From NCBI GenBank assembly GCA_946699065.1, contig CAMPDV010000540.1, forward strand, positions 1 through 64,000: a DNA stretch of 64,000 bases, in the 5' to 3' direction. How positions within the stretch are numbered: the first letter of the stretch is position 1; every line of letters begins with the position of its first letter. Below are positions 7,486-44,639 of this stretch, one piece after another. This stretch comes from Loxodes magnus. Taxonomy: Eukaryota > Ciliophora > Karyorelictea > Loxodida > Loxodidae. The notes under the pieces are model-generated. The model worked only from the letters and a program-made list of their open reading frames with translations, was not told where the DNA came from and searched no databases. A program made the translations under genes and the position numbers.

Positions 7486-8503
7486 TAATCATTTATAATT
7501 AAGATTAAGATTAAATGAGAGTTAACAGTTATGCTAAAAAGCCGGTTAACGTCGGTGTTACTTCTGGACGGGTTTTTTTTGACGGTTTTCCTTCCGCCGT
7601 GACACTCTTCTAGGCTGTATGTCACTCTGAGATCAGTCATTAAGAAAATCTTGAATATAAATGTGCGCCCTTGGGTCTTTCTAGTTCATTTCTTCTGGCG
7701 TCAATTTCCTATAAATCCTCCCGTTCGGATCGCAGTATAGCCTCTACTTATTAAAAAACAATTATCTTTCTTTTGTTTTTAGGCTTATTCTGCTTTAATC
7801 CGCTTCAGCTCTAATGTCCTCCAATATTCTCTTTGTTAGTCTTAAAATTTCCTGCAATTTCTAAAGAGATGTCAGCTACTGCCACAGCAGTAACAAGATT
7901 TGGGCTGACTATATTGGATCTTGGGAGGTAGAGGTCTAGGAGGCGTGTTCTTACTCCAGTTCCATGAATTAATTTTACTGGAGAGCAGAATCCGGCTTAT
8001 AAGCCTACGCTTACACTTAATGGGTCTTCTGACCACTCAATTACTCGATAGTGCGACTCTGAAGCAAAATAGTGTCGTGAGCTTTATTGAGCTCCACTCG
8101 CATATCGAAAACCTCCTACTCAAGCTTAACAAGTCGGGCTTAATCCCAAGTACTCAACTTGGTGCCAGTTCGCATGATTTTTGTTAGAGTTTGCTTGAGG
8201 TCCTGTACCTCCTGTCTGAGCTCTGCTTACTCGATGGCTAACTCGTTATCGTAGCCAGAGCCGGACAGAGAGAAATCGCTCACTGAGGATTGTTGGAGTT
8301 AAGTTTTCTTTTTAGGTTTCTCTTCCTGCAGTGGCGTCCCTGGAGAAGTCTGTAGATGTTTCTTCTGGGTCTGGGGAATAATCTGTTGTTGATATTGGGC
8401 CTTTTCTTCCTTGCCCTCTTCTCCTTTTTTATTACCTGTTGGAGGTGGATAGAATCCTTTTCTCAGACCTGACATCTTGTTAATTATAATCATTTATAAT
8501 TAA
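7486..8503 (-). mobile_element. Gag-like retroposon G1 with 17-bp target-site duplication
   Basis: The perfect 17-bp direct repeat TAATCATTTATAATTAA occurs at 7486-7502 and 8487-8503. Between them lie 984 bp that are much richer in GC than the surroundings and hold a single minus-strand gene. The ATG (8475) is only 11 nt from the 5' end of the element. The 3' end carries a short repeated tail (TTAATC twice on the minus strand) directly before the left repeat. This is the architecture expected of a complete insertion made by target-primed reverse transcription. No LTRs and no polymerase gene are present. That it moves in trans by LINE machinery is inference. Confidence 0.75.
7633..8475 (-). 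CDS. Gag-like zinc-knuckle protein G1
   Basis: Starts MSGLRKGFYPPPTGNKKG at 8475. It continues with a Glu/Gln-rich predicted coiled coil (AELRQEVQDLKQTLTKIM; LVKLEQEVFDMRVELNKAHD) and ends with LYCDPNGRIYRKL and HIYIQDFLND before a TGA at 7633-7635; 281 codons in the start frame. The zinc knuckle CYCCGSSWHLFRNC (top-strand 7854-7895) is one nucleotide out of that frame, preceded by a Pro-rich NTPPRPLPPK stretch. Two compensating frame changes are therefore needed. Its Trp is TGA. Order coiled coil, knuckle, G-R-I-Y-R-K is shared with the other gag-like genes here. Probable role: nucleic-acid binding particle or RNA-chaperone protein of a retroelement (family inference). Base composition differs sharply from neighbours. 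Confidence 0.75.
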
Positions 8504-9873
8504 TTTATTTTATAAAGAAAAATAGATTTTTCTCTAATTACCTTTTTATTAGATTTATCATCCTTACCTTTATTAAATAAAAAATAACAAAATTAATAAA
8601 TTCTTATTTAAAATTAATAAGTATTGTTTAAAATAGTCTATATTACAAACATTCTTAATTCAAATTTAGAAAGATATCATCAAAATATTATGAAAAATGC
8701 TATTTTTACATTATTAAAATATATCTAAAATATTAAATACACATCTTCTTAAAACCTTCTCTTTGTCCATCCTTAAAGATTCTTGTAGTAAAATTCTAAA
8801 GAAAAACTGAAATTTTAAAAATACCCCTAAAAATTACTAATTTCTCTAATATTTTTTATCTAAAATAAATTTTATATTTCGTAAGATTTATCTTTATAAG
8901 AGTCATTTAAATTTAAATTTTTTTTTAGTCCTTTCATAAAATCTCCTGTAGTGTGAAACGCTGAGAAAAAATAACTGTTTTCAATTTTTATTAATTAAAT
9001 TTATTTAAACAAATAAAAAATTCAAAAGCTATAAAAAAAGTAATTTTAGTTTAAACTTTTTTCAAATAAGAAAGAAACTAACTTTAATAAATAAAAGTGT
9101 TATTTTATAAAGCAAGCATTTAATAACTTTAAACACTTTAAATACCAAAATAATTACTTTTATTAGCAACCTTAAACAAGCCAACTATCTACACATTCTT
9201 ATTAGGAATCCACACTCTCTCATAACATCTTTGGCTATATAGTTTTGGTAATATCCATTGTTGAAAATATAAATATAGAGATATTAAATAAGGAAATTGA
9301 TAATTAGACTGATATATCTGTACTTGAAATAAATAAATATGTTTAGTTACTAAAATAGTTAAAATATAGTTAGAGAAAGTCATCAAAGATACATAATTTT
9401 AAGTTATTTACACTTATAAATGATAAACATATCAAAAATAATTATAAATTTTATTTAATTAAAACTTAAATATATATTTTAATATGAATGCTATTTCAAT
9501 TAAGAATATAACATACATAAAAAACAGTAAATACACTTTCTAAACACACTATTAAACAAATCTTAAAATACAAATATTTCATTATATATATATTCATTTA
9601 GCTCACCCTTTGCTAAATCAAATAATCCTTTCTCTCTATCATTGTATCTTAAAACCAAAATTAAAAAAGTGAATAAAATATAAACATATAAATATAAATA
9701 TCATTATTATTATTATTTTTAATTAAAAAGAGTCCTAATTAAATATATAAAATAGTCCACTCTCAAACTCACTATTTTATTACTACAGTAATCCAATTTA
9801 TTCTTACAACCTTCATTTCCATTAGTATTCTAACTTACCCCCTTATAATTTTACATATCAACATACATTCTAT
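8504..9873. other. AT-rich intergenic region
   Basis: About 1.4 kb of low-GC sequence. A minus-strand stretch around 9190-9390 (containing QWILPKLYSQRCYERVWIP) has protein-like composition but no supporting motif, length or homologue in the window, so it is left uncalled. Confidence 0.4.
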
Positions 9874-10734
9874 TATAAAAAGTTAAAAGTTAAAAGCTTT
9901 GTTAAAGCCTTAGTAGTCAGCCATCTGACCTATTCTATCAGCTTGTCTCCATTAGTTTGTCTTGAATTTCTACTAGGCTTAGTTAGGCGGTGTAGCACTT
10001 CATTAGCGCACCATCCTTTAATATTCTGAATAGTTTTTATCTTGAATGTAGCATTTCTAATTATTTATCAAGGATTAAGATTTGAATTAAAGAATTTTTT
10101 TCTATAAATATTTCCGCTTTATGTTGGATATATCCTAAATAGTTTTCTAAAAATATCTTATTTATTCTTTCTTTAAATTTCGCTTAGTTAGTACCAGTAT
10201 TTTCATTGTGTTATTTATTGCATAACATTTTATTCTTCTTTTAAAACTATTATTCCTGTAACACTTATTTAATTTAAATTTACTACTTATTTTAAATAAA
10301 CGTTTACTGTTTATTTTAATTTGAGGCTTCATTTTCTATTTCCATAGGATCTGATTAATTCTGTTAAAACGAAAACGGCGTAACCTGAATTTATTATTAA
10401 ATTTAAAGAATTCTTTGTTCCAGTTTTGTCTTCTATTTATTATGATTATTAATATTGTTTCTCAAGTAAAGAAGTTATTAGTTTTTTCTAATTTTTCTAC
10501 TTTATCAGTGAGGTATCTATTTTTAAACATAAACTCTTTTAATGACTTAGATAATATTTCTATTTGAGTTTGTGTCGGAAGTTTTTTTAGTTCTGGATTT
10601 CCAAGTGGTTAATGTTCGTCATATCAATCATATTTCTCACTTTCACTCATTGTAATTATTTCGCTTTTTTATTTTTTAGAGAATTTTCCTGTTTAAATGT
10701 TTTGTTCAAAGTTCTGTTATTTCTTAGAAGCCAT
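9874..10734 (-). pseudogene. Decayed copy of gag-like gene G2
   Basis: Same gene as at 43524-44385, alignable from the ATG (10734) to the 3' end and not beyond either end. Small indels disrupt it: at the zinc knuckle (top strand about 10190-10232) it has lost the codons that supply the second Cys and has shifted frame, so C-Y-V-C becomes C-Y-A. Other substitutions are spread evenly. Because the shared block is exactly one gene long, the two copies look like separate insertions or retrocopies, not a large duplication. Not expected to make a working zinc-knuckle protein. Confidence 0.75.
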
Positions 10735-13037
10735 TTTATATATATAATATAATAAACTATATTACACTTTATCTTTATTTATTCTAAAGATTTAGTGAAG
10801 TCTCTTATTTTAAATATTTGAAAAATTTAGTATTATTAAACAAAAAGCTAAAATAAAATATTTTAAGTTTGATATAAAAAGCGAAGCCTTACTAGCTTTA
10901 TAATAAGAATAGTTTGTACTAAATACTTTTAGAATTTTTAGATTGATTATTTAAGCAAAAGTTTATTTATTCCCAAAATTATTTACAAACATTTGTAAAT
11001 ATTTCTTAAGAAATTGTGCTACTAATTTTATATAATAACTTTCTTTCATAAGACCTTTGTTGAATATAAAGGTAAAATTAATTTTTTACAAATACTAAAT
11101 ATATTTAAAATCTAAAGTTATTAATAAATTTATTAGCTATATTTAAATTAATATTTTCCATTTATTTGTATTCTCTACTTATATACCTTTATTGGTTTCT
11201 TCCGATATTTGTTGATTTATGATGAATGATTAATATAAGCATAAGAAATATTTTCTTCAGTGTATATAATTACAACTATTGCATTAATTTCTTCATAAAC
11301 ATACTAAACTTTATTATTGCTCTCGCTCTTTTATTGAAATATATATCTAAGCTATTAAAAATTTTAGTTTATTAAGAATAAAATTTAGATATTTGGCTTT
11401 TAGTGAATTTAGCTAAAATAGTAATATGATCTTTTTTATATACAATTATTAACCAAACAAAAAGTATAAAGCGCAGAGTTTACTTCAAATCCTTTTAATT
11501 AAAGATTGATTTACTCTTTAAAACTTCTATGTAAGTATCTGTTTCATGGCAAACTATTAAAAAAGAATTTAATATGTAAGTTAAAAATTATTGCTTAAAG
11601 CATAGGATTTATCTAAAATGTTGAGTACATAAATAAATATTAAAATATAAAGATAAACTATAAGAGTTTATATCTATAAGCAAATTAAAATACTCTCTAG
11701 TTTGATAACTGATATTAATTCTGCACTTAATTACCAAATTATATCAAATAAAATAACTCAATAGCAATAAATTATTGACTAGACAAAAGTATAAATCAAA
11801 GATACTACAGCTCACTCATTGTTAATAGAAACTTAAGATCAAGAAAATGAAATTAAGTGTATATTAATAATTTTTAAACAAATAGGATGAATAAAAAATA
11901 ATAGAACTACAACATAAATGATTTATTAAAGAAGATATATTAATAAAATTATTTTGATGTAGTCTATCTATTTAGAAAAGGTTATATTAATACTTTTTTA
12001 TCTAAAATTTAAATCTTCATAATACTTTTAAACAAATATCTTAATCACTTAAGTGTCTTAACTAAAATAATAACTTTTATAAAATTTTAAATATCTTTCC
12101 TAAATATTCTATTTGATTTAAATAATTTCTAAGAGATATAAATTAATTTATAAACAACTACTAATAATTTGCTGCTAGATAGACATAATTTAGCTTTAAG
12201 AAGAATAATAATAGTTAGTTGCTTAAAGAACAGAAATAAATTGTTATAATTGGAAATTATTTTAAATGTGCATATGTAAAACTAATAAAAATAATTAAAA
12301 GCTAATAAAACTTTTATCTACTTGCTTCTCTTTATTTATCATATTAAATATCCCTTTTCTTTTAAAAGTTTTAATAACATTTTGCTATTATTAGTATATC
12401 TAAAATCACATTCGTAATTAAGACTAAGTAATTATGCTACTAATAGAAATAATTTTGTATTAGTTTAAGAAATTATACAATATGTTTTGTTTACAATTAT
12501 AATGAAAGTCTAAATTTAAATACTAAACTAAATTAGCTATACCATATAAAATAATTTAACTTTAGCTAGTTAAATATTTTTATAAAAGACTAATAGAAAT
12601 AAATAATCATTCTAGTAAAAATACCAATTTAATTATAAAGAATTGCATGATTAAATACTACTAAAACAATTATTAGCCCTTATCTTTTGATTATTCTATT
12701 ACTTCATAAATATAAAAATTATTTATTTTTAAAAGGTAACTAAGCTTATATAATTAAGAAGCTTGTTTTCATTGCAAAGGTCTTAAGAAAGAATTTCTTA
12801 ATATTATCAGGTTATTTAGTTTATTTGAAACTAGGTAAAATAATAGATGGTAGTATTAATTTGATTCTATATAATAAACTAATGATAGTTTAAAGTTTAT
12901 ATTTATTGTATTTTTTCTTCTTTAATATATTAGTAGCAATTTAATTGATCTAGTAATAAGGAACAATAAGTTATGATATGGCTATGTAAGTTGATAAGTA
13001 TATAATGAAAAGTAGATAAATAATCTTATAATATTGG
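10735..13037. other. Long AT-rich region without recognisable gene
   Basis: About 2.3 kb of low-GC sequence with scattered A/T tracts. I find no knuckle, kelch, RING, GTPase or RT signature in any frame and no tandem repeat of note. Confidence 0.5.
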
Positions 13038-16000
13038 TTTATATGGTAATTTTATAGTTAAAGTTTGATTATATTTAGCATGTATAAATAAATTTAGTTT
13101 ATCTCATATTTAGATAGATATTCTAGGTTTTAGAATTTAAATAGGTTTGGTTTAAATATAGTAAGGTTTTAATTTAAGTTAAGAAAGCATTTTAGTAAAT
13201 AAAGGTAGAATATATAATTAACTAAGAGGTTATTATTTGATAAGGTTTATTACTATTAATATATTAAAGCAAACAGCTTCTACTATCTATTTATTAATAA
13301 ATACTTTATAAATAAGCAGATGATATAGCTAATTCAATTATTAAATACCAAGATAATTCAATTATTTGTTATAAGTACCACAGCTATAGATATAATAAAA
13401 GCTATTGCCTTTCTTTTTTACAATAAATAAACAAGCTACAGCTACTTAATTAGATTTTAGCTTATAGATTATTATGAAAGCCTATTAAATAAATAATAAT
13501 TTGAAGGCTTAAAAAGAGTGAATTAGTTTAAAGTTTATTGATTATAATAAGTATAGCTGGTATTTTAAAAGACACTATTACTTTTGCTTACTAGTTTGCT
13601 TCATTTAAACCAACTATTATATTCTTTATTTTATACTATTGATAGAGAAATAATCATTAGTTTAAATTAAAATTTGGGGCAATCCTTTAAGTTTTAAATA
13701 GATAAAGGAACCCTAAAAAAGAATCTAGACTCAAACAAGTTGAATTAAATTAGATATTGCAAAGGATTTTTAAGTTTTACACTTAGATTGGTTGTATTAT
13801 AAGAACATGATTAGTAGTAACTAATAAAAAGAACTAAGAAATATAATAAAGTTAAAGATAAAATAATAGTTCTATAATAAATGTAAATGCATATATATAA
13901 ATAATTAGTTAAACATCTAATTCTATTAACTTACTATATTTTATTTCCTTAACATCGTATTATATTTCTATTATTATTCCTAGCATTGTAATAATCAAGA
14001 TATACAAATTAAGTTAAATATGTATCAAACTATATTATAATTAAATATATCAATAGTTCATAAGTAAATTTACCTATTATTAAAATTACCTTAGAGATCA
14101 AGTATTAATATCAGACAAATAGTATAACCTTATATTAGATAAACCATACTAACTTATTCAAGGTAAACAGATGCTAAATCAGATATTTATAAACTGAACG
14201 TAATTATTAATATAGTAAAGCTTTGTTTTATCTTTAGTATATTACTAATAATAGGTTAAAAGAAGCTTTAATATTAGGGATATATTTAATTTAATTCTTT
14301 ATATTTTAGTAAATTGCTTATATAAATTTAGAAGTTCCTTTATTAATTATTGCTCTTAATGATTATTAGTTAATTTTCTTATTTAATTTATTAATTAGAA
14401 TAGATAATAGAACATATTAATTATTTAGAAATCTCTAATAATATCTGTTGAAGTATAAAATATTTGTTGTTCCTTATTTATTTTTATTGTTCTACAAATT
14501 TATAAAATAATAAATTAATACCAGAGTATTTATACTAGGATATTAACTTCCTTATAAATATTATGCAGTTTTTTAGCATCTTAATTATTAAGCCTTAATT
14601 AACTTTAACTAGCTTTTATAAATTTATAATTGAGAAAAATTTAATTAGAAAGCAACTAGAATAGTACACAGTTTATATATCATTATTGATGTATTCTTTA
14701 TCTCTTTAATAATAATATTTTTATTTATAGTTCATGGCTTTTTTATTTATATCTAAGAAACTAACACTTAAAAATAAAAATTTAAATGTATTTATAATTT
14801 AAAGCTAGCAACTAAAACGATTCACTAAGAAGTAAAGATACTAGCTTTACAATACTTTCTCTCACTCTTTCCTTCTTTCATTAAATAAAATTTATTAAGA
14901 ATGTCCCTACAATAAGTATGATAGCATAGTCTTCCTAAAATTGCTTTACTATCATTTCTTCTTCTACATTTAGTATATTCATCTGTTCTAATTATTTTTA
15001 TAAATCTAGGTTTAAAGGTTAAAATTAATTATCTTAATTTTGTTTACTAAAATTTTAGTTAAAAAGAATAAATTTATAGAGGATATAAGCAAAAAGTGTT
15101 AATAAGAACAAAAGTTAATTAAAGAAAAAGGTTTAGTAAGGAAATAAAATACATTGGTTCACATTAATCAGTAGTAAAAGATAATCTAAAGCTATTATTT
15201 AATTAAGCTGTAAACATTTAATTATTTATCTTTATAAGTAAAATTTTCTAATTACTTAGATATATTTAGTGAGCAACAATAGTGTTTAGTATATTGAAGA
15301 TATAAGAAACTAAAATAATTTTTAATTTTAAGAAAATAAAAGTTTATCATTGATATTAATAAAGCAAACTAGCATATAACTAACTCATTGGAATTTTATC
15401 CCTTATATCTAGTTTATTTATATAGCTTTAGAATATAAGCTTATTTAACAAATTAGAATAATTATTATACCCTTCTTAGATTTGTATGTTTAAGCTGAAT
15501 CTCTTTTATGATTTAACTAAATTATAGATATACTTTTATATTAGTTAGTTTTATTTTAGGTATTAAAAAGCAGGATTTATAATTTTTCAGGCTTTAGAAA
15601 ATCCTAATAAATCTTTAAAAATATTGAAAGCTATAAGGTAATCAATTTACCTTAAGAATAGGTTATTTCATGCTAAATTGATTAAGATAATTCAAAAACT
15701 TCATTGAGTATACTGAATTTAATTCCTTATTATTAGAATATATCTCAAATAATAAAGATAGTGCTTACACTATTTTTAAATAAAATATTAGCTATCTAAA
15801 TATTTCTTAGTTATATTAAAGGATTTTAAGAACTTAAAAGAAACTATTAAGATTTATGAATCTAGATATTAATTAAATAGCTAAGCACTTTGATAGCTAA
15901 TCAGATAAAGTCTATTACAATTTTATTTAACAGCTATAAAATCTTTATTTGTCTGATTTATAAGAATATTCTTCAAAAGTATTTTAGTTAAATAAATCAA

Positions 16001-16315
16001 TGTTCTTAGTTAATTTCATGTTGAAATAACTTATAATTTAATTAAATTGAAGTAGCTTAAGAAAATCAAGTGATATAAATATAAATTTGCTTTAATTATT
16101 AATAAATCATTTCAGCTAAAAGCTGACTAGAATATATTCACAAACATAATTGTATAAACATTAAGTATTTTCTTATTAATTATAATGCTTGTATAGTTCT
16201 CATTTATAGCTATTTAATTTATAAAATTAAGCTTTACTTTAAATTATATCTTCAGCTTTAGCTTTAAGAAGTTATCGTTAACTATAGATAAATTATTTAT
16301 TTTTTTAAGCAGCCA
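13038..16315. other. AT-rich non-coding portion of the duplication
   Basis: More than 3 kb of AT-rich sequence with no convincing gene on either strand, highly similar to 51112-54370. It forms the upstream region of the kelch gene. Nothing further recognised. Confidence 0.5.
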
Positions 16316-16319
16316 AAAA

Positions 16320-18480
16320 ACGTCTATCCTTATTATTTGTCTCTTGCTTTCACTATCTTAAGCTTAATGAAGATAATTCCCAGAAAGTTCTACTCCTCCA
16401 ACAAGACGCTATTTATTTTACGGTAGTATATAGTTAGAAGCAAAACTTTGTTTCAATTTCTATGGGAAAGGGAGATAAAGACATAATTTTCAATGATGTT
16501 TGATGGCTTGATTTAGCATAAAATTATTGATATTTAATACCAGTATCAAGCTAAGTAAATCCTGAAGCTAGATTCTTAGGCACTTCTTAATAAGTAGAAA
16601 ATTAAGAAATTATGATTATATTTGGAGGATAATCAGCATATGGCATTCATAACGATTTATGATCCTTCTCTATTCAAAATTATGAATGAAAAAAAAAATT
16701 ACTTAAGGTAAAAAGCCACTTCCCAGAACAGGACATACTTCAGATCTAGTATAGCAGGAAGATGGAAGCTACCTTCTATATATCTTTGGAGGAAACACAT
16801 ATGATGGATAAGTAAATGACGTTTGAGTTTATAATTCTTAACTTAATAAGCGAACAGAATTGAATACAACAGGAGATTCTCCTCCTGAATAAAATAAAGC
16901 TCAAATTTTTTACGATGATAACGAACTGATTGTCGTAGGCTCGGGAGCAGTAAAAGATGAAAACATGTATATCTTAAATTTAGCAAGCTTAGTTTGAAGA
17001 AAAATGGATTAAAATAATTCATCTTAATCATAATACTTTGCTTCGAGTTGCTTAGATAAAAAGAATAAAAGGATATACAGAGTTTCAGAATTATCTGATA
17101 ATTTATTAGATAATGTTGGAGAATTGTTAGAACTTGACTACTCAAATCACGACAATTTTATCTGAAAGCTATTAGATGTTTAAAATTGAGATTATTTCAA
17201 AAGAGATTCCTTTTACACAGCATGTAGTGATGAAAAAATTTGGATGATAGGAGGCAGATCTTAGACGGGTATTAAAAACGATGTGATTTGTTTAGACTTG
17301 TAAAAACCAAAATTAGAGTGAGAAATAATCTAGGATAGTATCGATTTTCCCGAACCTGTGCCTACCACACTATGAATGTAATCTCTGGAAGTGCCTATGT
17401 GTTTGGAGGTATAAACTCAGAATAATAGTTACTTAACAGTATTTGGAAGCTAGACTTAGAAAATTGGATGTGGTAGTAAGTTCAGGTATTTGGATCCTTG
17501 CCGCAGGAAATATTCGGGCATATTGCTGCTCAGAATGGAAATTTTTTGACAATATGGGGGGTTAAGGAAATTCAGAAATGTTAAATGATATGTACAAGTT
17601 CAATACAATTAGTAGAACGTGAGAATAAGTCTCTCAAAAAAGTCCTCCAACTCCAAGAAAATTTGCCTGTGGTACAATGGTTGGAAAACATTTCTACATG
17701 TTTGGTGGATAAACCATCTCAGGAGAAACCAACTAACTATGATAGTTAGACTTAGGATCCAGTGTATGACTACTTCTCAACAAAGACAAAAATTATCCTA
17801 GAAAACTTATACACTGTAACCTTCATGAATATGAAAACGTTCTATACATTTCACTAGGCACAAATTTACAGGATTCCGATAATCCATATATTTATTCTTA
17901 CGATCTCTAAATATTCCAATTTCGAGAAGATTGAGTAGTATTAGAGAATTGAGGAATAACTGGATTTAGTGCAGTTGATAATTTTATGGCCATTTACGGA
18001 GGACTGAGCTGAGGATTATTTCCCTATAATGATATGATACTAATAGATTTAGAATAAAAAAGGATACTAAAGCTATCGAAGCTAGTGATTAAATGAATTA
18101 AGTATGGGGTCATACCATGATTTATTATAAGAGAATGTTAATGTACTTTGGAGGAGTTTTTATCTAAGGAGGTTTTAGTGTAACCAAAAAATCCATAAAC
18201 TAATTTTGAATTTACGATATTCCTCGGCATTGTAGTCCTAACTTAACTTTATGTGGATTGCCTTGTAGCTATGGAACTTATGAAGATGAAAACGGAGAAT
18301 GTTAGTTTTATCCTCGTGGTACTTATACGAAATAAAGTAACAATATTCAATATTTACTTACCTTCTATGTCTTAACAATATTAAATCTTTACTTACTAGC
18401 TATGTAGTTAACAATATTAAATGTCAACTTGTCATCTATGTGTTAACAATATTCAATTTTTACTTACCTATATTAAAATT
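16320..18480 (+). pseudogene. Secreted kelch-repeat protein, copy A, start codon lost
   Basis: Same gene as 54378-56504. Kelch blades are obvious: MIIFGGQSAYGIHNDLW, YIFGGNTYDGQVNDVWVY, YVFGGINSEQQLLNSIWKL, HFYMFGGQTISGETNQLWQL and MAIYGGLSWG. The invariant Trp after each FGG is usually TGA and sometimes TGG, and Gln is usually TAA/TAG. In this copy the ATG of copy B is ACG (16320-16322), one extra T follows at about 16423, and the A-tract near 16689 has a different length. The sister copy has its own frame breaks elsewhere. Decay is likely, although homopolymer sequencing error could explain some breaks. The Cys of copy B's GECQLCPRGTY is replaced (Phe-Tyr) here. Confidence 0.75.
18338..18475 (+). 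repeat. ~36-bp minisatellite, 4 units (copy A)
   Basis: Unit approximately TTAACAATATTAAAT plus TTTACTTACC...TATGT. Copy B has three units. In copy B each unit encodes 12 mostly hydrophobic residues, such as LTILNLYLLAMQ, at the C-terminus of the kelch protein. The extra unit here is 35 bp, so it also shifts the frame and removes the TGA stop used in copy B. Confidence 0.8.
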
Positions 18481-18499
18481 TTGAAATGTGTCGTACTTC

Positions 18500-20490
18500 C
18501 TATAATAAGATTTATAATAATTTAAACTTACCATCTATATATAATTTTTAAATTAAAACTTTAACTCACTCCAATACATTTAGAGCTATTAACCATCCAC
18601 GATCTATAAACATTGTATCGTCTAAAAACCATATTCTAATTTATTGTTATTCTTAAAGATGTCCAATGACCATTATTTTAAATTAGTTTATTTTTCTATC
18701 ATGTTCTTTAGTTATCAGATAGTGTATCTTATTTAACTGTAAGATTCACAGATTTATTATTAGGTGATATTATCGATATTTATATTTCTTATTTTATGAC
18801 CTTTGTCGATTAAGATTAGGAAGCTTACTCTTAGATATTTTAAACACTCTAGACTTATTGATTTTACTTATCCTAAAGAACTTAAACTAACACTTATTGC
18901 TAGACTTACTACTAACTTTATTAAGCTTATATTTACTTACTCAGAAACTCACTCAACTAACACGTAAGCTATTATCTTTTCTCCAATAAATTTTGAATCA
19001 TTTTTCAAAATTAGATCTCTCCTATTATAAACTCTTAATTTACTAACTTAACTCCTGATTCCATGACATATTATTATTGCTAGCCTTAGTAAGTGCATTC
19101 AAACTATTCTCTTATTGCCTATTTAACTCACTCAACTTATTCAACTAACCCCTTAAAAGATTATTATAATTTTTTTAAAGTTCAAGCTAACTCTCCAACT
19201 CTCTTATTCTGCTCTCTTTCTATAAATTTAATTTTTCATACTACTACTATATAGTGAGATTCCTCTATTCCTTCTCTTTGTCTAAAGTAACTGCTTTATT
19301 GGCAATTAATATTAAAGACCCTGAATTGATAAATGTTTTATTTATTATTTCAATTCCTTAAACTTATTTTTATAGTCTTATAACTAGAAGTTATTTTGTT
19401 TCAAGATAGTATTTTACTGCTAGAGCATTCTCTCTCGTTATATCTCTTGATCCTCTATTTCTTGCTAGTTATGAGATATTTGTTCTCTTAAGCCATTCAA
19501 CACCAAATCCTACTCTTTAATAACTTAAAGTAACTTTTAGATTTATTCTTTACTTTCCTTATTAACACTCTCATAATATTAAGCCTACAACTAACTCTCC
19601 TTTCATAAAAGTTATATAGTTCTTTAAAAGGATTATATCTATACTCTCTATCTAGCATGCAATTCCTATTCTAAACCAAACTAACTCCCTTTCATCATCT
19701 TTTAAAAAACTTAAGCTTCCACATTCTAAGGTATAAGAATAGCTTAATATTAAGAATATTTTTATTCTTCATTTATTTGATTTTCTTAAAGCTATACTTC
19801 CAATCTCTCTAATTAATTCTTCTTTATCTCACATTACTATATAGTGGTCTATTACATTTATCCGATACTCTCTACTTACTTACTCATCTCAAAAATATTA
19901 TTTTAACTTATTTCCTACCTACTCTATTCGCCTTTCTCCTATACTCTTATCACCAACTCCTCACATGCTTACTCTAAACTTCTCTTGATATTATCATAGA
20001 TCTATACTATATATTTTATATTTATCATATAATCTTAAGCCAACTACATTTATCATTAGCCTAAGACAGAAGAATATTGATTCAACCTCTCTTTCATAGC
20101 ACTCAAAATCATTTACATTCGAACTTACATAATAGGAACGATTTCCTCTTATCTACCACATTGATGCTTCTTATGAGAATTCCATTGGCATTTTTCACAT
20201 ATTAATATACTGTCACTCAGACAATAAAAAGCTAGAATCTCATTATGCTCTTAACATATATTCAGTAAGTTTTATTTTGACTCCTCTTAAAGATGTGAAA
20301 CCTCCATTTCTAATTTTTCAATTGGTCTATAAGTGATGATGTTGTGCTTTTTACAATTAAACATCTATTAGATTTTGTAGAAGCTTTTCAAACATCTCTC
20401 ACAAAGAATACATCCACAATCCAACTTTCTAGGCTTTCTAAACTCTTAGTTGAAGTCTTTTTCGCAAGCTTCGCATTTAGATGGTAGCAT
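18500..20490 (-). CDS. RING / B-box / coiled-coil (TRIM-like) protein, copy A
   Basis: Starts MLPSKCEACEKDF at 20490. Zinc ligands of a RING-type finger are C6, C9, C25, C27, C30, C33, C46 and H49. A B-box follows with C79-x2-H82-x7-C90-x7-C98-x2-C101-x4-H106-x2-H109, an exact B-box 2 spacing. The rest is a long Gln/Glu-rich coiled coil (for example EQISHNQQEIEDQEIQRE). One frame change near the A7 tract at about 19175 is needed; beyond it the coiled coil resumes (QLTCQLSEFLSKQIQAQQ). The 3' end, converging on the kelch gene, is uncertain. TRIM/RBCC proteins are usually ubiquitin ligases that oligomerise by the coiled coil. The C-terminal domain is not recognised. Confidence 0.8.
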
Positions 20491-20995
20491 TTTATTTTTG
20501 AATAGACTAAAAAGAAAGTAATTTTTGGTTTTAAGAGATTTAGATATGAAACTAAATAATAATCCTTTTAATTACTTATAACTTAATAAATAGAAGAATA
20601 ATTACTATTAAAATTAAAATATAAAATGGAAGAATTTTCCCTCTAAAATTTTAGATAATTTATAAATAATAAATATTAAGCCACAACTAAATATTTAATA
20701 TAATCTTACAAACATGTAACATACTAATATATTAGTCAATTTTACATCACTACATTACTATATTTTATTTCAATAACTCACTATCATTTATGCTAAATCA
20801 ACCTAATAACCAAATATATTATCTAAAACATATACAAATATTTCAGCCAATTACTATTTAAATCCTATTTTTAATACCCTATACATCTCAACCTAATATA
20901 CAAAATCTACAATATTATATAACCACCAACTCATCAAAAACTACTTCCTACATATTTACAGTCATCTCTGAAAACGCAAATTAAACAAATTAATT

Positions 20996-23900: not shown

Positions 23901-24539
23901 AATCATAGTAAAATTTTAAATACGACACAAAAATGGAAATAGAAAAAATACCAATAGAATTAAAAGCAGAATTGAATCCAGAAAAAGAAATGATTGCTAC
24001 AAGTTTCATTAAAAGATTAGAAAATATAGAAAATAAATTATCATAAAAAAGAACGAAATAAAGACAATAATACAAACTTTGTTGATGTTGCAAATCAAAT
24101 CAACATATTTTAAAAAATTGTTGATAATGAAAGAAAATAAACGAATAAGAGCAGAAAAGAACATGGAGACAACTCAATAAACTATGAATAACTCCAACAG
24201 GGATCTACAAATAAAAGCTTTTTGCAAGACCACTTGAACGGTTACAGTGGTAACCTTCCACTTAATAAAAAGGTCGTGGATCACACCCACGTTAAAAAAA
24301 CTGTCCGCAGGAACTGGTTGCAATTCCAGAAAATGCAAAACTCTACTAACTTTAAGTATATTATTATTATTATTATAAAAGTGTTAACAGTTAGAATGAA
24401 AGGTGAAGTGATTTCAATAAGCACGATAATCTAAAAGAACTACTCATCAAATTTATAGAACATAATAAAACCTAATTCATGGACCAAAACGTGCTCAGAC
24501 TATAAAGATAATTTCTCATTTTTAAAAGCTTAGGAATGA
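20996..24539 (+). CDS. Gln/Lys/Asn-rich hypothetical protein, copy A, interrupted by a retroposon
   Basis: One frame is open from ATG at 20996 to 23534, about 846 codons with Gln as TAA/TAG and many TGA as Trp. There a 853-bp gag-like element is inserted. The host frame resumes at about 24388 and ends at a TGA at 24537-24539. Composition is Gln/Lys/Asn/Ser-rich with hydrophobic patches (LLPFLSSVGCLNQGKIYFW). The frame is supported by copy B: TGG-CAA here (22250-22255) is TGA-TAA there, synonymous only in this frame and code. I recognise no domain. The insertion should truncate the product after residue 846 or replace its tail. Confidence 0.65.
23522..24387 (+). mobile_element. Gag-like retroposon G3 with 13-bp target-site duplication
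   Basis: The 13-bp direct repeat ATAAAAGTGTTAA is at 23522-23534 and 24375-24387. The sister duplication has it once (61540-61552) with identical flanks, so this is an insertion with a precise empty site. The inserted part contains one + strand gene. Its ATG is 11 nt after the left repeat, and its 3' end is a (TAT)n tail (24356-24376) abutting the right repeat. The lack of LTRs, the target-site duplication and the simple-repeat tail fit LINE-type retroposition. Confidence 0.9.
23546..24406 (+). CDS. Gag-like zinc-knuckle protein G3
   Basis: Single open frame from ATG (23546). N-terminal basic Gln-rich region with a SSSSEG patch, then coiled coil (EKIRELMSNIEDQNNELLIL; FIKRLENIENKL). The CX2CX4HX4C knuckle CWCCKSNQHILKNC is at residues 179-192 (24080-24121; its Trp is TGA), followed by KRTWRQLNKLWITPTGIYKQ, matching the P-x-G-x-I-Y-x-K motif of the other members. 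The tail is basic and Pro-rich. No TGA occurs inside the element: the frame runs through the (TAT)n tail as a Tyr run and meets its first terminal TGA at 24404 in host DNA. Either a TAA near 24350 once served as stop, or the stop was lost. The copy looks young and intact. Confidence 0.85.
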
Positions 24540-26017: not shown

Positions 26018-26029
26018 ATTTATCTTATC

Positions 26030-31918: not shown

Positions 31919-32464
<546 letters not shown>

Positions 32465-33579: not shown

Positions 33580-36500
33580 TCAATCCTTAATAACATTTTA
33601 TCCAAAATTTAGAGACTAGAAATTTGTTTTCCGCTGCTTCCCTAAAATTTACTGTTTATTATTTACAAATTTACTATATTAGCATCCTGGTTAGTTTCAA
33701 ATCTGTAACTGCCATTCAATCTATATTTTCCATTAAAAAAATGTTCTCAATTTTAAAAGAGGCAGTTTATGTTTTTCCATTTACATTAAGCATTCTAGTT
33801 TATCTAATTATTAGATAGCTAGTCTTTATTATTTAAACTGCTAGTTTAGGAAAATGTGCAATTAGTTATCAGCACTTATTACCAGAACTTAATTTGCATT
33901 CAAGGCTATAAATTGCAATTCTTGCGCCTTATCATTCCTTATGCAGTCCTATACTCAGTTTACTATCATTCCTCCACCTCTTTCATTATAGTTATCAGAA
34001 AATATATTAAAATGGATATGCAGAGTTAACTATAATTCAACAACTAATATAGCCAAAATCTGTTTCAACTCAATTTTGAGTCAATCAGTTATTCATTCAG
34101 ATTTAGTTATAGTAAAAGCTACAATTAGTCATCTTAATATCTTCTACCATTCTTATTTACTCAAATATTACATCTTCAACTATTCCAAAATTGTCATCTT
34201 ATAGACACAAGCTACAGAAAAACCTGCTTCTTTTACCTCTTAACTTCTATATAATTTCTTATTAAGCATCTAAAGTTAAAACCCTTAAGACTTTAAAAAA
34301 CAATTATGTGTAATTTAACGTTACTTTGCTTATGGGATAATATTTTCGGAACCTTTCTTCTGAATACCTCTAATTATGACTCAATATATTGCTGCTCAGT
34401 ATCACTTATATTTAACTACTCAAATTATTGATGTAACTAAGTTATAGCTAAACTAACCATTTTAGCCTTCTATTGCTGCTCTTTATTAGGTGCCATTCAA
34501 ATCACTCTCACACCAAGTATCTTAGTTTTAAATATCTTAATAACAGTCATTCAAATCTCTTGTTAAATAACTTACAGTTCTGAATCAAAAGGAGAGCTTC
34601 AATTTCACTGTAAAAATAGCTTAATAAGGAAGATAAAATTAAGCTTTTAGTGAAGGTAACTTCGTTTATTCAGATTAGTTGAGTCGAGTTAGATTTTTCA
34701 AACCCAGGAAACTCAATTCCTGTATAGTTTTAATCTCCACTTTTTTAATCCAAATTATGGAAATTATTTATTTCACTCCCTCTATTAAATTTTAGACTTC
34801 CACAATCAAATTCTTCGTGCTCTAGTACACAATACGTGCTAACGAAATACTTTCATGAATCAAGAAACTAAAAGTCTGTGTCATTAAATTCTAAATTACA
34901 AGACTAGCATTCAATGTAATTACGGTGATGATTAGAAAATTGATGAAACCAAACATTATTTAAACTCAATTTTCCTTGAATGATCTTTATCAGAGATTAT
35001 GTATTTTTAGATATTCAGTTCCAAAAAATTAAAGCTATTCTAAAACATCTGTTGCTAAACTTCATGAATAACCATATTCATCAAGTAAAGAAATAAGATC
35101 ATCTCTCGAAAAGGAAGCTTCTGCACATATATTACAGGATCACTTTTCATTTTTATAGCAATATACATTTGGGAGATTCATGTTTAATGCAAGTGTGTGC
35201 ATTTCTAATATTACGTTCTCAAATTTTAAGTGGCTTTAAAAGAAAAAAAATTGAATATCTGTTCGCATGAAAATAATTTTAGCTCTTTCTTTAGAATCAA
35301 AAAACCATTTAGCTAACTCTGAAGCTTAGTCTTTTGGATACTGAAAGCAATAAAGAGTTTAAATAGTTAATTGCTTAAATTACTCGTATAAGCTTTTTAG
35401 TCGTTAGTTTACTTTAGGAGTAAAATGTAGTTTGTAAAACTGTCAGTAGCCATTGAACTTTATTCCTACTATAGATCGTCTAAAAAATGAGTTCTATTTG
35501 TCAAAAGAACCTTAACATATCTCTTCTAAACTCCTTCTGCCAAAGCTTCAGCTAATGAAAGATAAGGCCGATCAAAAGTTCCTAATCCTTTGTATATAAT
35601 GCAGCTGGCTGATATTCCCCTGATTAAAGTTTTGAGTTTCATTTAGTTATTCGCTAGATACTTCATCGCAAAATTTATAGAAAATACCATTTTTAGTAAA
35701 TCCTGCTAGAGGATAATTTATATTCGTAACATAAATAACCCTAAAGATTCTCCATAGAGGATCAATCAGGACCTGCCTCACATCTAGGATCATTTGGGTC
35801 TGTTACATTCTTAATAAACCTAGCAGGTAATTCATCTAGATGAAAAGAGCGATTCTATAAAATCCTTAATTACAATATCAGCAATGCCAATAATTTGGAA
35901 TTTATCTTACGCACTTTGATTTTAGTTGTATACAGAGCAAAAGGATGACATTGTAATATTTTTTCCCCTAAAGATCGAAAAATAATAATTAATCTTAGTC
36001 TTAAGTATCGATGAACATATAAGTAAAAACAGTTCCATCATAAAGACATCCTGCAATCATAATTTTTTTTCATAGCTTTAATCTACCTAGTAACATGAAA
36101 ATTAAGTTTAAGAGGTCTTATAGTTTTGATAATTCTATTAAGTTTAATTATAGTTATATTAATTTCCTATATTTCTTAAAAACTTCCCAACTTGCTGCTG
36201 CTATTCCAATTAATTTATACATTCTAACGGGCGATCTTCTAAATACATGGTTTTATCATTATTTAAAATTCTTTGAAAAGTTTATTAAAATGTGAGGCTA
36301 TACTAAATTTCAGGCTTATGTGGAAGTTTAGTATATAGCATGCAATCAGGTTTTACTAAGGAATTTTATCGTCTCTTGATCTATTTAACTATCTCAGTCA
36401 TATTGAATGCAACTGACTTATCAAATACTATCGCCTAAATTATTTTATGTGGCTTAATCTTTTCATCCTATTTTACAGCAATTCTTATAATCAAAATCGC

Positions 36501-36974
36501 AGAACTTGTTGTTGCATATTTCATTCCATATTCGATTTCATATAATTAACAATATTCTCCGTCACTTTCATAACAAATGCAATCTTTCTAGTCTCAAAGG
36601 CAGTCTTTAGAATAGCATTCTTCGTCACATTAACCATTCCCTAATAAATAAGACTAACAGTTTTAAAACTTAGCATTTCACTTAGTATTCATTGATTAGA
36701 ATCCAGGAATTAGCTTTTCATATATTCAATTTCTTGCTGCCTTGGCTCATTTACAATGCTTATTGCAATAAATTGCATTCTACTACTTTATACCATTCTT
36801 CACAATAATATTCATTTTGTAAATGCAAGACTGAAGATCATTTATTATCAGAGATATATTTACTCAAGCACAATCGCTGAAAAAAGATGTACTAAGAAAC
36901 ATTATAATTGAATAGTTTCATTACTCTAGGATGAGTATCAAAGCTGCAATAATTATTTCAACAATCACTATCAT
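33580..36974 (-). CDS. Large extracellular protein with Lin-12/Notch repeat, several frame breaks
   Basis: The 5' end (ATG 36974) encodes a hydrophobic leader (MIVIVEIIIAALILILE). A clear Lin-12/Notch repeat follows near 36580-36660 (LLGNGQCDEECYSKDC then LWDQKDC). Further on are Cys-containing and ordinary soluble segments (DKFQIIGIADIVIKDFIESL; DPNDPRCEAGPDW; NVYCYKNEKWSCNICAEASF; TYCVLEHEEFDCGSLKFN). LNR modules are Cys-rich, calcium-binding extracellular folds. At least three frame changes, at about 35760-35900 and 36460-36500, are needed to link the parts, so this is either a decaying gene or affected by sequence indels. The 3' end is not fixed. Two or more genes could be present. Confidence 0.5.
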
Positions 36975-36986
36975 ACTAATAATCTT

Positions 36987-37939
36987 CTACTCTTTATATA
37001 AAAAATGGAAAAAAACCCGGGAATCTAAACCTTGAATTCTAGCCTTAAAGATCAATCTTAAGTCTTAGTTAACTAACAAGAACCAAGAATTCAAAAAAGA
37101 TAAATCTACTCTTGTTAAGGATTGGGAAACACAGAATTTCCTAGCAAACTGAAAAAGCTTGAGAAATCCCACGAGCAAGACATTATTACGCTTTATTCAT
37201 TAATTGAGAAAATTAATACCGAAATATAGATCCTGAAGGCGGAAAACTTGAATCTTCGGCTTCTTTTGTAAGATAGAAAAAAGGAAGATCAAGACTTGGT
37301 AAGTAAAGTTTAGTTTTAAATTGAAGTCTTAACTTCCTAATTTCAACTATTAGAAAATTAAAGAAGAAATTCGATTACCAATCAAAAAAAACTAACTTCA
37401 ATCAGAAAAGATGGAAATTGAAAAAATGAAAAAGAATAAAAATTTTAATTCAAGCCCTTAATAAAACGTTGCTATTATTGTCAAAAGGCTGGACATTTTT
37501 GGAGGTAATGTTTGAAGTGAAGAAGAGAGCTTGAGCAGCACCGTAAATAATTTGGAACATCGAGGGGGCTATATTGTAACTACTTTGGAGGTATTTACAG
37601 AAAGAAGCTGATATTAGATGATTCAAGTGTGACACTAATCAAGCAGGATCTTGGTAATTAATAGTAACAGAATATATAGCTTTAAAAGGACAACAATGAC
37701 CTTAGAATTTGTTTAGATAAGCTGGAGAAAAATTACAAGAAGATGGAAGAACAATTCTATGAGCTTATTGAAGAGAAAGAAGAATTATCTCAGTTTGAAA
37801 TTGATTCAGATGAAGACATGCACAGTTGACTATTGAATATAAGAACTTTTATTGTCTTTAATTTGAGGAAACATTTTCTCTAATTAAAGATGACCCTAAC
37901 CCTTATAGTTAAAATTAATTAATTAATATCCTACTCTTT
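36987..37939 (+). mobile_element. Probable gag-like retroposon G5 (9-bp flanking repeat)
   Basis: The 9-bp repeat CTACTCTTT is at 36987-36995 and 37931-37939. The ATG of the single gene follows the left copy by 9 nt. The right copy is preceded by a (TTAA)n-type tail at about 37909-37928. The layout matches G1 and G3, but the repeat is short and no empty site is available, so confidence is lower. Confidence 0.55.
37005..37829 (+). CDS. Gag-like zinc-knuckle protein G5 (complete, 274 aa)
   Basis: Single frame of 275 codons from ATG 37005 to TGA 37827-37829. A coiled coil (TLYSLIEKINTEIQILKAEN) precedes the knuckle CYYCQKAGHFWRQC at residues 156-169 (37470-37511). Residues 189-200 carry GLYCNYFGGIYRKKL, the family motif. 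A second coiled coil (LEKNYKKMEEQFYELIEEKE) and an acidic end (FEIDSDEDMHS) follow. Internal TGA encode Trp (NWKN; LKWRRE). This is the cleanest member of the family and fixes its normal length and TGA stop. Likely RNA or DNA binding through the knuckle, by analogy with gag nucleocapsid and LINE ORF1 proteins. Confidence 0.9.
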
Positions 37940-38029
37940 TAACATTAAATCATAAGGTATCTGAACATTTTATGCAAAATCTTTCATCTTCTTAACATTA
38001 CTTAACAAAACATTAAAGATCGCAAAATC

Positions 38030-39194: not shown

Positions 39195-39256
39195 AAGAGT
39201 TGTGAAGTAAGTTGTTACTGGGAAACTGTAAATTTTTAGTGTATTATAATCATAAA

Positions 39257-40463: not shown

Positions 40464-40977
40464 GAAGAGATTTTTGGAAGAAATGTTTCTTTTTTATATA
40501 GTAAAATAAAAAAAGGAATTAAAGCATAAAAATATGTTAATTATAAATTTAGTTTATAAGCTAAATCCTAAATTTTACATTGATTATTGTATAGAATATT
40601 TCATTATTTAATTTAATTTTAACTTAAATATATTTTCTAATGGATAGTTCGTTGATCTCTTTAAATAAATGCTAAAACAGTTTTGCTTATAGCAAAAGTT
40701 TAAAATCTAATTATTTTCTTTATATGAGATAATATAATTAAACTATTATAAAGTAAGTTATAAAATAAAAAATGCAAAACAAAGAAATATAATTTATTAA
40801 GAGTATCTTTTTAAGAAATATTTTAAAATAAGCAAATTATTCTCTAGCTAAAATTCCTTTTTTTCTTAAATATGAAATTCTACCTATTTTGTTTTTTTAA
40901 AACTGGAAAATATAATCAACTACGACAAAAATAAAGGTAATTCTTTAATATTTAGATAAAATATTCCAAGAATATAC

Positions 40978-41700
40978 GGTACTTTATTATCTGTAGTGAT
41001 ATCAAGTAACTAAAATTTAATCGTATCGGGAAATAGAGATAATACGATAAAGATATGGGTCTTAACAACTGGCTAGTGTAAGATTACTTTATAGGGACAT
41101 ACGAATCCTTTATTATCTGTAGCGATTTCAAGAGACCAGAAAAGGAATCGTATCGGGAAGTTCTGAAGGTACGATAATGATATGGAACTTAGCAACTGGT
41201 TAATTAAAAAGTTCTTTGTAAGGACACACGAATGGTGTAAATTCTTTAGCGATATCAAGTGATTAGAATTGAATTTTATTGGGAAGTTATGATCAATCGA
41301 TCAATAAATGGGACTAGCGAATGTAAGGGTTCTTTGTGGGGAGATACAGATTCTGTGTTTTCTGTAGCGATTTCAAGTGACCAGAACTGATCATATCGGG
41401 AAGTATTGATAAGACAATCAATATATGGGAATTAGCAACTAGTCAGCTCTTAAAGGCCATTCAAATACTGTATCAAGTATTCAGTTTAGTAACTTCAAGT
41501 GTTACAATTTCTGGATCATGTAGATATGAAACTTTAATATAGGTGAATGCATATAAACTCTTTAAGTCTAAAAAATTATCTAAATTATATAGCATTGGGT
41601 AAGGACAACAAATGAATAGTAGCAGGAGGATATGATAATACTGTGAAAAAGTGGAAAATAATAAGTTGAGAGAAAGTAACAACTATTAAGACTTTTAATT
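40978..41700 (+). pseudogene. Degenerate WD40-repeat gene
   Basis: Several WD40 blades are legible: LIVSGNRDNTIKIWVLTTGQ, LQGHTNPLLSVAISRDQ, IVSGSSEGTIMIWNLATGQ, LQGHTNGVNSLAISSDQN and ISGSIDKTINIWELATSQ. Consecutive blades lie in different frames, with single-base shifts at about 41141 and 41381. The third blade loses its GH and the last (ISGSCRYETL) is barely recognisable. No N-terminal domain or start was found. WD40 propellers are scaffolds; this looks like a dying or partial gene. Confidence 0.7.
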
Positions 41701-43523
41701 TTACAATTTAAGAAATTTATTATTACTGTTAGGAAAAGCATACTATGTATTTAATTACGTATAAAAGCTTTAGAAGATATAAACCAATTAAAAATTAAGA
41801 TATTTACGTATGGTTTAAGAGTATATTTACGTTTTAGATTTATTTATCCTTAAGTATTTTATATTAAAAATTTATATATGACAATATACTTTTACTTAAG
41901 CATGGCTAAGTCTACAATGTAAAACAATAAGAATTGTAAATATTTTTCTTAAAAACATTTATTGAAAAATTACATTAATTTAAAAATTTGAAGTGGTTGA
42001 AATAAAAATATTAATCCATTAATTAATTAATTTAAAAAGGTAATAAGATAAAAGCAATAAATTTAATCTAAATATTAATTTATAAATTAACATATTTTAA
42101 ATCCTTTTTAACTAAAATTTTTCACTATATAAAGTTTTAATAATTTTTGAATTAAAAAATAAACATAAAATATTTGAATTATATTGAATTATTTTATAAG
42201 ATAGAATTAAAAAAAATGGATTTTATCTATATTTAATTTTTTTAATTTTATTGTTTAAAGATTTTTTTAATTTAAAAAGATGAATTAGTATTTTTAGCTT
42301 TATTTAGCAATTTTTCTAAAGCTATAAAGATTTACTTATTTTAAATTTGATATTGGAATTTTTAAAGGTAATAAAATATTAAAATTTTAAATATTTTAAA
42401 ATAATTTAAATTTATTAAATTTTAAATAATAAAAAGTTAAAATTAGCAAACTTTTTAATTAATTAGAAATATTAGCTTTGCACTGCGTTATATATTATAT
42501 AAGATTTGGGGACAGACATAGATTTATAATTTTAAAATATATAAAAAATGAAGTTATTAATTATTATTCAGAAAATAAAATATATTCTAGTGAGAATTCT
42601 TTTAATAAAAATAAAAAGAAAACTTTAAGTATTATAATTAAATCTTATTTTATTTTAGGAAATATCTAAATTTAGAGTAAAATTTATCTTATAAATATTC
42701 TTATTTTTTTAATTAAAAGCAGAGTGAGTTAAAGTTTGTTTATTAATTTAGATAGATTTTTTTATTTTTTTATATTTTTAAGATTAAAAATATAAAATTT
42801 TAAAATCAACTAAAAAAAGTCAAAACAAAAGATTCGCTTGCGTTTTATGTTTTATAACTCTTTTAGGAAAAATAAAATATTATATTTGAGAATAAAATAA
42901 AAGGAATTAGAGCTAAATTTTTTAAAAATAAATAATAATAAAGTGGGATTTTTTAAATAAATTGTAATTAAAAAGAAACATAAATAGTTTATTAAATAAT
43001 AAAAAGTTTAATTTAATTATTAAATTCATTTTGTAATATGTTTCCCATTAATGGATCAAGTAAAAGGTATAATAAAAGTGCAAAAATTTATATTAAAATA
43101 AAACAATTATTTTAGAATAAAAACATATTTTAGAAGAAAAGGAATACAAAATTTTAGTAATCATAAAAACTAATTAAATCAAATATTTTAAAATTGAAGG
43201 AAGAAAAAATTAATTAAGAGATTTTAGTAATAAAATCAATAGAAAATTAGTAGCAAAAATAATTTCCAAGACGAAAAAAATTGATTTTTAATTTTTGCAC
43301 GTTTTATACTATCAAAAATTTTTAGAAAAAATAAAATAAAAATGATTTAATTTACAAATAATCATAAAAAAAGAAATTCTTTAAATTCTTTTAAAAATGA
43401 AGAAAAAGGTTTTTTTATATATTTTTTTGAATTCTTAATTGATTAAATTTTTGATTGAAAAGATATTAAAAAATTCCTTATGTTTTATACACAAATTATA
43501 TAACAAAATTTATTTATTTATTT
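41701..43523. other. Extremely AT-rich tract without genes
   Basis: The most AT-rich part of the window, with long A and T runs, and no motif on either strand. A short CTTGCG-containing spot near 42840 is the only GC interruption. It separates the WD40 remnant from a gag-like gene. Confidence 0.55.
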
Positions 43524-44385
43524 ATAAAAAGTTAAAGTTAAAAAGTTTTGTTAAAGCCTTAGTAGTCAGCCATTTGACCTATTCTATCAGCTTGTCTCCA
43601 TTAGTTTGTCCTGAATTTCTACTAGGCTTAGTTAGGCGGTGTAGCACTTCATTAGTGCACCATCCTTTAATATTCGGAATAGTTTTGGTCTTGCACTTAG
43701 CATTCCTAATTATTTATCCTTGGATTAAGATTTGAATTAAAGAATTTTTTCTATAAATTTTTCCGCTTTATGTTGGATATATCCTAAATAGTTTTCTAAA
43801 AATATCTTATTTATTCTTTCTTTAAATTTCGCTTAGTTAGTAGCAGTATTTTCATTGGTGTTATTTATTGCACACGTAGCATTTTATTCTTCTTTTAAAC
43901 TATTATTCCTGTAACACTTATTTAATTTAAATTTACTACTTATTTTAAATAAACGTTTACTGTTTATTTTAATTTGAGGCTTCATTTTCTATTTCCATAG
44001 GATCTGATTAATTCTGCTAAAACAAAAATGGAATTACCTGAATTTATTATTAAATTTAAAGAATTCTTTGTTCCAGTTTGTTTTCTATTTCTTATGATTA
44101 TTAATATTGTTTCTCAAGTAAAGACGTTATTAGTTTTTCTAATTTTTCTACTTTATCAGTGAGGTATCTATTTTTAAACATAAACTCTTTTAATGACTTA
44201 GATAATATTTCTATTTGAGTTTGTGTCGGAAGTTTTTTTAGTTCTGGATTTCCAAGTGGTTAATGTTCGTCATATCAATCATATTTCTCACTTTCACTCA
44301 TTGTAATTATTTCGCTTTTTTATTTTTTAGAGAATTTTCCTGTTTAAATGTTTTGTTCAAAGTTCTGTTATTTCTTAGAAGCCAT
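43524..44385 (-). CDS. Gag-like zinc-knuckle protein G2 (intact copy)
   Basis: ATG at 44385. A Lys/Gln-rich N-terminus (MASKKQQNFEQN) is followed by coiled coil (LTDKVEKLEKLITSLLEKQ; EIENKLEQRILQ) and the knuckle CYVCNKQHQWKYC at residues 169-181 (43843-43881; CX2CX3HX4C, its Trp is TGA). QDIFRKLFRIYPTQSGKIY then RKN matches the family motif. A basic tail follows (RNSGQTNGDKLIEQ). No TGA closes the frame before it runs into a TAAATAAATAAA tail at about 43515, so the stop is uncertain. Similarity to the copy at 9874-10734 covers exactly this gene. Frames on the opposite strand here are mirror artefacts. Confidence 0.8.
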
Positions 44386-44639
44386 TTTATATATGTATAT
44401 CTTAATAAATTAAAAAATATCATCTCTAATTTGAGGCTTGATTATGAAGCAAGTTATGAATTAAAAAAGGGAAATATCTATTAATAGTTCTAAGGTAAAA
44501 AGCAAAATTATTCACTTGAACATCTTTTTAGAAATATAAAAATTTAAGAGTATGCTATAGTAAAGTAATCTCTTTCAAAGGGCTACAATATAATAAAAAG
44601 ATAAAATCTTAATTTCTAGCAAAAATAGAAAAGTCTTTA

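Follow-up and report, generated by a model that had tools for sequence, protein, structure and literature searches.

To our knowledge, few retroelements that lack a reverse transcriptase (RT) retain the first open reading frame (ORF1), and these are chiefly derivatives of L1. The ORF1 protein of the HAL1 elements is of the L1 type, with a coiled coil, an RNA-recognition motif (RRM) and a C-terminal domain (CTD). HeT-A of Drosophila is a non-long terminal repeat (non-LTR) element without RT, which adds to telomeres and whose only product is a gag-like protein with zinc knuckles. HAL1 (half-L1) elements of mammals are ORF1-only copies of L1 that carry target duplications and are thought to depend on the enzymes of a long interspersed nuclear element (LINE) (PMC5322556). 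In a five-type scheme of LINE ORF1 proteins, type I has an RRM followed by CCHC knuckles and type II, that of L1, has a coiled coil, an RRM and a CTD (PMC4120745). Here we describe a 64-kb stretch of the genome of the karyorelict ciliate Loxodes magnus (contig CAMPDV010000540.1, positions 1–64,000; 'the window') that contains seven loci of five lineages (A–E), in which a CCHC knuckle is followed by a short motif, GxI[YW][RK]. These units are probably short (~0.84–0.98 kb), non-autonomous, LINE-dependent retroelements whose sole gene encodes an ORF1-type RNA-binding protein; its ORF1-type nature is suggested by its architecture.

HAL1 appears to be the closest kind of element. Like HAL1 the units are ORF1-only, lack RT and show target duplications, whereas their ORF1 has a knuckle and a predicted hairpin in place of an L1-type protein. 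Like HeT-A they lack RT and encode a gag-like knuckle protein alone, but they occupy dispersed sites, where A and C show target duplications, rather than being added to telomeres. HAL1 differs further in having a poly(A) tail and an L1 parent (PMC5322556), whereas the units end in AT-rich repeats and have a ~10-nt leader, and no parent was found for them. A gag-like CCHC knuckle late in ORF1 recalls the type I proteins, but no RRM is detected by Pfam and a long helix precedes a single knuckle; an N-terminal region followed by a coiled coil recalls type II, but a CCHC knuckle and a predicted helix-hairpin stand in place of the RRM and CTD. As a long helix is predicted ahead of the knuckle and RRM, CTD, PHD and esterase domains are undetected, the protein would be placed among the unclassified (type V) proteins of the five-type scheme (PMC4120745).

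The units are discrete mobile elements, with discrete ends, target duplications and, for unit C, an empty site. Unit C (23535–24374, plus strand, 840 bp), with its ORF starting at ATG 23546 and a (TTA)n run at its end, lies in one copy of a segmental duplication (13038–26910 and 51112–64000, 95–98% identical, on the same contig with a start-to-start distance of ~37–38 kb by self-BLAST). The duplication is recovered as blocks 13038–23537/51112–61555 at 98% and 24375–26263/61540–63427 at 96% identity, and the gap between the blocks is unit C (837 bp). The filled copy has ATAAAAGTGTTAA on each side of C, at 23522–23534 and 24375–24387 (13/13 bp; the first A can be assigned to either side), and the second copy of the duplication shows GAATAAAAGTGTTAACAGTTAG once, at 61540–61552, without the insert. 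C therefore probably entered after the segmental duplication; the alternative, its precise loss from the second copy, is less likely, given that the empty site retains the target exactly once. The insertion has no room for an RT, and no RT or endonuclease family was found in it by Pfam (three plus frames and the minus frames). Its landmarks, a MEIE patch (residue 130), the knuckle (24080–24121) and ITPTGIYKQKL (24188–24220), are all in the frame of the ATG. An in-frame TGA after the motif is absent within the unit in both C (24221–24374) and B (43523–43743), so that, barring other stops, translation would continue into the tail or the flanking sequence.

The remaining units share this layout. 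Unit starts lie 11 nt before the ATG in A and C and ~9 nt before it in B and E, and because of this common start we regard these four as full-length rather than random pieces. On the 3′ side they finish in AT-rich repeats (runs of TTA, TTAATC-like, TTTTAAC-like or TTAA units) in a window that is AT-rich as a whole. The window lacks inverted repeats of at least 60 bp; near A, D and E the inverted pairs are short and AT-rich. Unit A (7503–8486, minus strand, 984 bp) has its ATG at 8475 after an 11-nt leader, a TGA at 7633–7635 and the end TTTAATCTTAATC; it is flanked on each side by TTAATTATAAATGATTA, identical over 17/17 bp (7486–7502 on the 3′ side, 8487–8503 on the 5′ side). Its ATG, MELE and GRIYRK (motif at 7702–7734) are in one common frame and its knuckle (7854–7895) is in another, so the knuckle is not continuous with the rest of the protein as had been supposed. 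Unit E (36996–37923, plus strand, ~928 bp) has an ORF at 37005–37829 (274 aa, TGA 37827–37829) and a TTAA repeat tail; the knuckle (37470–37511) and motif (37575–37610) are in the ATG frame and MEIE in another.

Unit B (43523–44394, minus strand, ~872 bp; ATG 44385 after the 9-nt leader ATATATAAA) has MEIE (residue 130), knuckle (43843–43881) and motif (43744–43776) all in the ATG frame. It has a second copy, 95% identical, at an unrelated site (9874–10743, minus strand, ATG 10734); the two are similar in a single block from 9 nt before the ATG through the 3′ repeats and dissimilar outside it. The knuckle of this copy, given as 9874–10734 in the original prediction, is broken by indels. Across the aligned block there are eight indels, of which one lies immediately upstream of the unit, and 18 non-synonymous and 10 synonymous changes against an expectation of ~4:1 (P = 0.04, with frameshifts present). 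The first 247 nt of the ORF are identical between the copies (44139–44385/10488–10734) and are followed by patchy differences, a pattern that looks like a mosaic.

For lineage D only the aligned part, 26088–26700 (minus strand), is defined; it has no ATG at its start but carries IEIE, a knuckle (26359–26400) and PSGNGKIWKKN (26245–26277) in one frame. A second copy (63195–64000, minus strand) lies in the segmental duplication and extends past the window edge. It retains the knuckle (63451–63492) but lacks the 73 bp that carry the motif, which corrects the original prediction; in the first copy 15-bp direct repeats flank these 73 bp. Substitutions between the copies of D are without clear pattern. 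The frame changes in A (knuckle), E (MEIE) and the second copy of B may reflect decay or assembly indels.

A ATGGAAATAGAAAA-like stretch lies at 43998, 23933 and 37411 (unit positions 397 in B, 399 in C and 416 in E). It is at residue 130 in both B and C and outside the ORF frame in E, and is either a nucleotide signal or the result of compensating frameshifts.

Recognition of the protein depends on the genetic code used. Under the standard code the window (25% GC) contains no frame of at least 150 residues between stops; it is read with TAR as glutamine and TGA as tryptophan or stop. In an Arf gene at ~31.8–32.5 kb (minus strand) TAA and TAG are read as glutamine and TGA seemingly marks the end, and in one knuckle column TGA in B and D pairs with TGG in E; on these grounds we adopt the karyorelict code (table 27). 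Because every frame across the window is then open, openness of a frame is no evidence and only landmarks continuous in a single frame count. With TAR as glutamine and TGA as tryptophan, all ten strings quoted in the original prediction (five knuckles and five downstream motifs) are found in the window, although the two for D come from different copies, the knuckle from the second and the motif from the first, whose own knuckle is CYICNSTLHLWRKC.

The claim that five lineages share a knuckle and then a downstream motif was borne out. With search patterns that were composed after the motifs had been seen, the window has eight knuckle matches (two being both copies of a B-box-like gene), eight motif matches and five same-strand pairs of a knuckle and a downstream GxI[YW][RK]; in dinucleotide shuffles the means were 0.035, 0.8 and 0, respectively, and pairs occurred in 0 of 200. 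The gap from knuckle to motif is 21–27 residues in B, C, D and E and ~40 in A. When the six-frame window was searched as 1278 pieces of 200 residues, leave-one-out profiles picked up lineages B (3e-9), C (1.8e-7), D (8e-11) and E (2e-8); in 10 shuffled windows the five-member model scored 0.0008 at best. With 1000-residue pieces the values were 1e-5, 1.8e-5, 1.6e-10 and 2.8e-7, respectively, and A was missed; hand-chosen pieces cut out of A scored 22.6 and 18.9 bits. Four of the five predicted diverged lineages are thus recovered by profile, but A only weakly and with its knuckle in another frame; its sequence suggests membership through the two motifs in order and the independently defined ends. 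The downstream motif is conserved at the protein level, as had been proposed, while its codons differ synonymously between lineages and inter-lineage DNA matches are stretches of at most 39 columns (best E-value 8e-4).

The conserved order of the protein is a variable N-terminus, a helical region, a MEIE-like patch, the knuckle C-[YW]-x-C-x(3,4)-H-x-x-[KR]-x-C, a helix and [YFW]-x4-G-x(0,1)-I-[YW]-[KR]. Knuckle spacing is C-x2-C-x4-H-x4-C, with x3 before the histidine in B, and in the aligned B, C, D and E the columns K, C, C, H, C, G and I of this conserved core are invariant. The core profile matches structures in the Protein Data Bank (PDB), with TUT7 at 1e-7 and HIV-1 nucleocapsid at 3e-5 and retroviral nucleocapsid knuckles among its best matches; the significant matches extend over the knuckle and the residues next to it. 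In the five in-frame ORFs Pfam gave no family above its cut-off, with no match to RRM or Transposase_22, although the linker might hold an RRM that is very diverged; B has a weak PHD-like match (E-value 0.032, under the cut-off). The model of E (predicted TM score, pTM, 0.35) has a single long helix over residues 45–135, ahead of the knuckle where a type I ORF1 would have its RRM, and this is confident over residues 61–130 (predicted local distance difference test, pLDDT, 80–93). In the models of E and of the B core (pTM 0.31), which draw on the same four sequences, the motif falls in a two-strand hairpin after a helix, with low confidence only (block pLDDT 41–50 in E and 61–65 in B). The downstream motif and knuckle may therefore form one segment rather than separate motifs. 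The coiled coil announced by the original prediction is suggested by the model of E, as a test for 3.5-residue periodicity (P = 0.03 to 0.24 in the five) gave no clear support.

Searches for relatives gave no match. A protein database searched with the four-sequence alignment yielded 3194 candidates, none at 0.01, and a thinner search with the core region of E yielded one candidate and no relative; these negatives are weak because predicted genes may miss ciliate genes with reassigned stops. No relative was seen among viral contigs scanned with B and E or prokaryote genomes scanned with C, and fold searches of the B core against the PDB (best E-value 5.0) and of E against viral models (best 1.4) found nothing. 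The collections searched probably contain few or no correctly translated ciliate genes. That the downstream motif is foreign to known knuckle proteins is consistent with the protein database and PDB results, where matches are to knuckle and flank, although this is weak support. Literature searches found no ciliate ORF1-only element, which does not prove absence in print, and the terms ORF1 and gag are absent from the main text of the Loxodes genome report (PMC11441545).

We infer an RNA intermediate, a LINE partner and the function of the protein as follows. The RNA would begin ~10 nt before the ATG and extend through the ORF to the end of a short tail. Oligomers of the protein would form by way of the coiled coil, and the basic N-terminus, the CCHC knuckle and the helix-hairpin after it would coat the RNA from which the protein was made. 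Nicking of DNA and copying of the RNA by target-primed reverse transcription would fall to a LINE enzyme acting in trans, and this would give rise to the target duplications and the AT-rich 3′ repeat. The precise short insertion, the target duplications of 13–17 bp, the fixed 5′ start and the AT-rich 3′ repeat together fit the known pattern of target-primed reverse transcription by LINEs. The proposal of a gag/ORF1-like family without protease or RT is supported and is reinforced by the evidence of mobility. Its expansion in this genome, also proposed, is so far a conjecture drawn from seven loci in a single 64-kb window. Tandem repeats and LINEs abound in the L. magnus genome, with ~2,700 copies of RVT_1 and ~1,200 of endonuclease (PMC11441545), and Loxodes is a candidate source of the borrowed enzymes.

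Several results weigh against this reading. The LINE partner is unseen, because the window frames covered by Pfam yielded no LINE, RT or endonuclease (minus strand outside 1–4299, 13001–17499 and 50501–64000; plus strand outside 1–4299, 34391–37899 apart from E's own frame, 51101–64000 and, beyond unit C, 23501–24399; thresholds of 0.1, 0.01 or 0.001 by scan; 51112–64000 is mostly duplicated sequence); a weak RVT_2 match (E-value 0.017) in one of four core members was considered chance. The full-length profile had no PDB match at 0.001, and Pfam zf-CCHC was under its cut-off in each member scanned (0.0017 in one of four cores, 0.057 in full-length E). Leave-one-out recovery of A was weak (motif part alone, 0.0013, where shuffles reach 0.0008), and the score of 17 for its direct repeat was reached by at least 1 of 60 shuffles with position not fixed. 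Target duplications were looked for but not detected at B, its copy and D, and the direct repeat of E (36980–36995/37924–37939) is imperfect (14/16) and at chance level. Neither end of D was located, leaving the proposed span 26030–27660 without support. The four 3′ ends have no common motif above chance, and in 3′ folding one of six regions was clearly better than shuffles (E, z = −2.76), the others being mostly at shuffle level.

A bolder form of this interpretation, which we put forward tentatively and think somewhat less probable than its negation, is that the units belong to a self-sustaining lineage of protein-coding, RT-less karyorelict retroelements. As gag-only elements parasitic on LINEs, they would retain an RNA-packaging protein of their own whose ORF1 architecture is new (coiled coil, one knuckle, helix, GxI[YW][RK] hairpin), their lineages being old enough to share no extended DNA similarity. 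If true, the presence of five old lineages in a single window would show that encoding a packaging protein alone can be a lasting strategy, and one could ask directly what ORF1 does when the enzymes are borrowed. The post-knuckle motif would be added as a candidate for RNA binding, and a name would be given to part of the many unclassified repeats of Loxodes, where most of 915 families are unclassified (PMC11441545).

The most serious alternative, which we judge unlikely, is that the units are retroposed ORF1 mRNA copies of full-length LINEs with the same ORF1 and have no lineage of their own. LINEs of 5–6 kb are abundant in Loxodes (PMC11441545), A, B, C and E share the short leader, and broken copies (the second of B, the second of D and the frame changes of A) are as expected of dead-on-arrival copies. 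However, B is present in two 95% identical copies at unrelated sites, and therefore either the short form itself has been copied or its source is active, and no LINE with such an ORF1 turned up among the frames scanned in the window. A host gene family with a coiled coil and knuckle, copied by retroposition, is an improbable source. Although a short leader, units of near gene length and target duplications compatible with LINE-driven retroposition would fit processed messengers, the tails are the TTA, TTAATC-like, TTTTAAC-like or TTAA runs described above and not poly(A), and five very diverged lineages per 64 kb would imply an exceptionally productive gene; the window showed no source gene with introns, no genome-wide search having been made. 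Gag-only relics of LTR retrotransposons would explain the gag-like coiled coil and CCHC knuckle and the retroviral nucleocapsids among the best core-profile matches. This is very improbable, as there are no LTRs around A, D and E, where repeats reach 35 nt only, self-BLAST revealed none of at least 100 bp around any unit, and the target duplications of 13 and 17 bp exceed the 4–6 bp usual for LTR elements. Look-alike strings in a stop-poor code are scarcely credible and a chance set is rejected for B, C, D and E: motif hunting is easy where all frames are open and A is weakly recovered without its own sequence, but pairs occur in none of the 200 shuffles, leave-one-out values for four lineages run from 8e-11 to 2e-7, and in A, B and C the segments that match correspond to units whose limits were defined independently. 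We therefore retain LINE-dependent, ORF1-only retroelements as the preferred reading.

Elsewhere in the window Pfam identifies host-like domains (Arf, RING, Kelch, WD40, B-box and LNR), and the window as a whole gave no tRNA or Rfam match. Kelch repeats at 16560–17910 are distributed over all three plus frames, reflecting introns, indels or a pseudogene. The WD40 repeats at 40900–41650 show several frame changes, and the tandem repeat units found there by TRF are of 127 bp, not a multiple of three; one frame change apparently lacks an intron, so that this region seems to be a pseudogene or to contain an assembly indel. A further duplicated segment (1–2542/28842–31389, 90% identical) contains 100/200-bp tandem repeats, and 3889–4277 consists of ~43 head-to-tail copies of the 9-mer TTTCAGACT with 98% matches.

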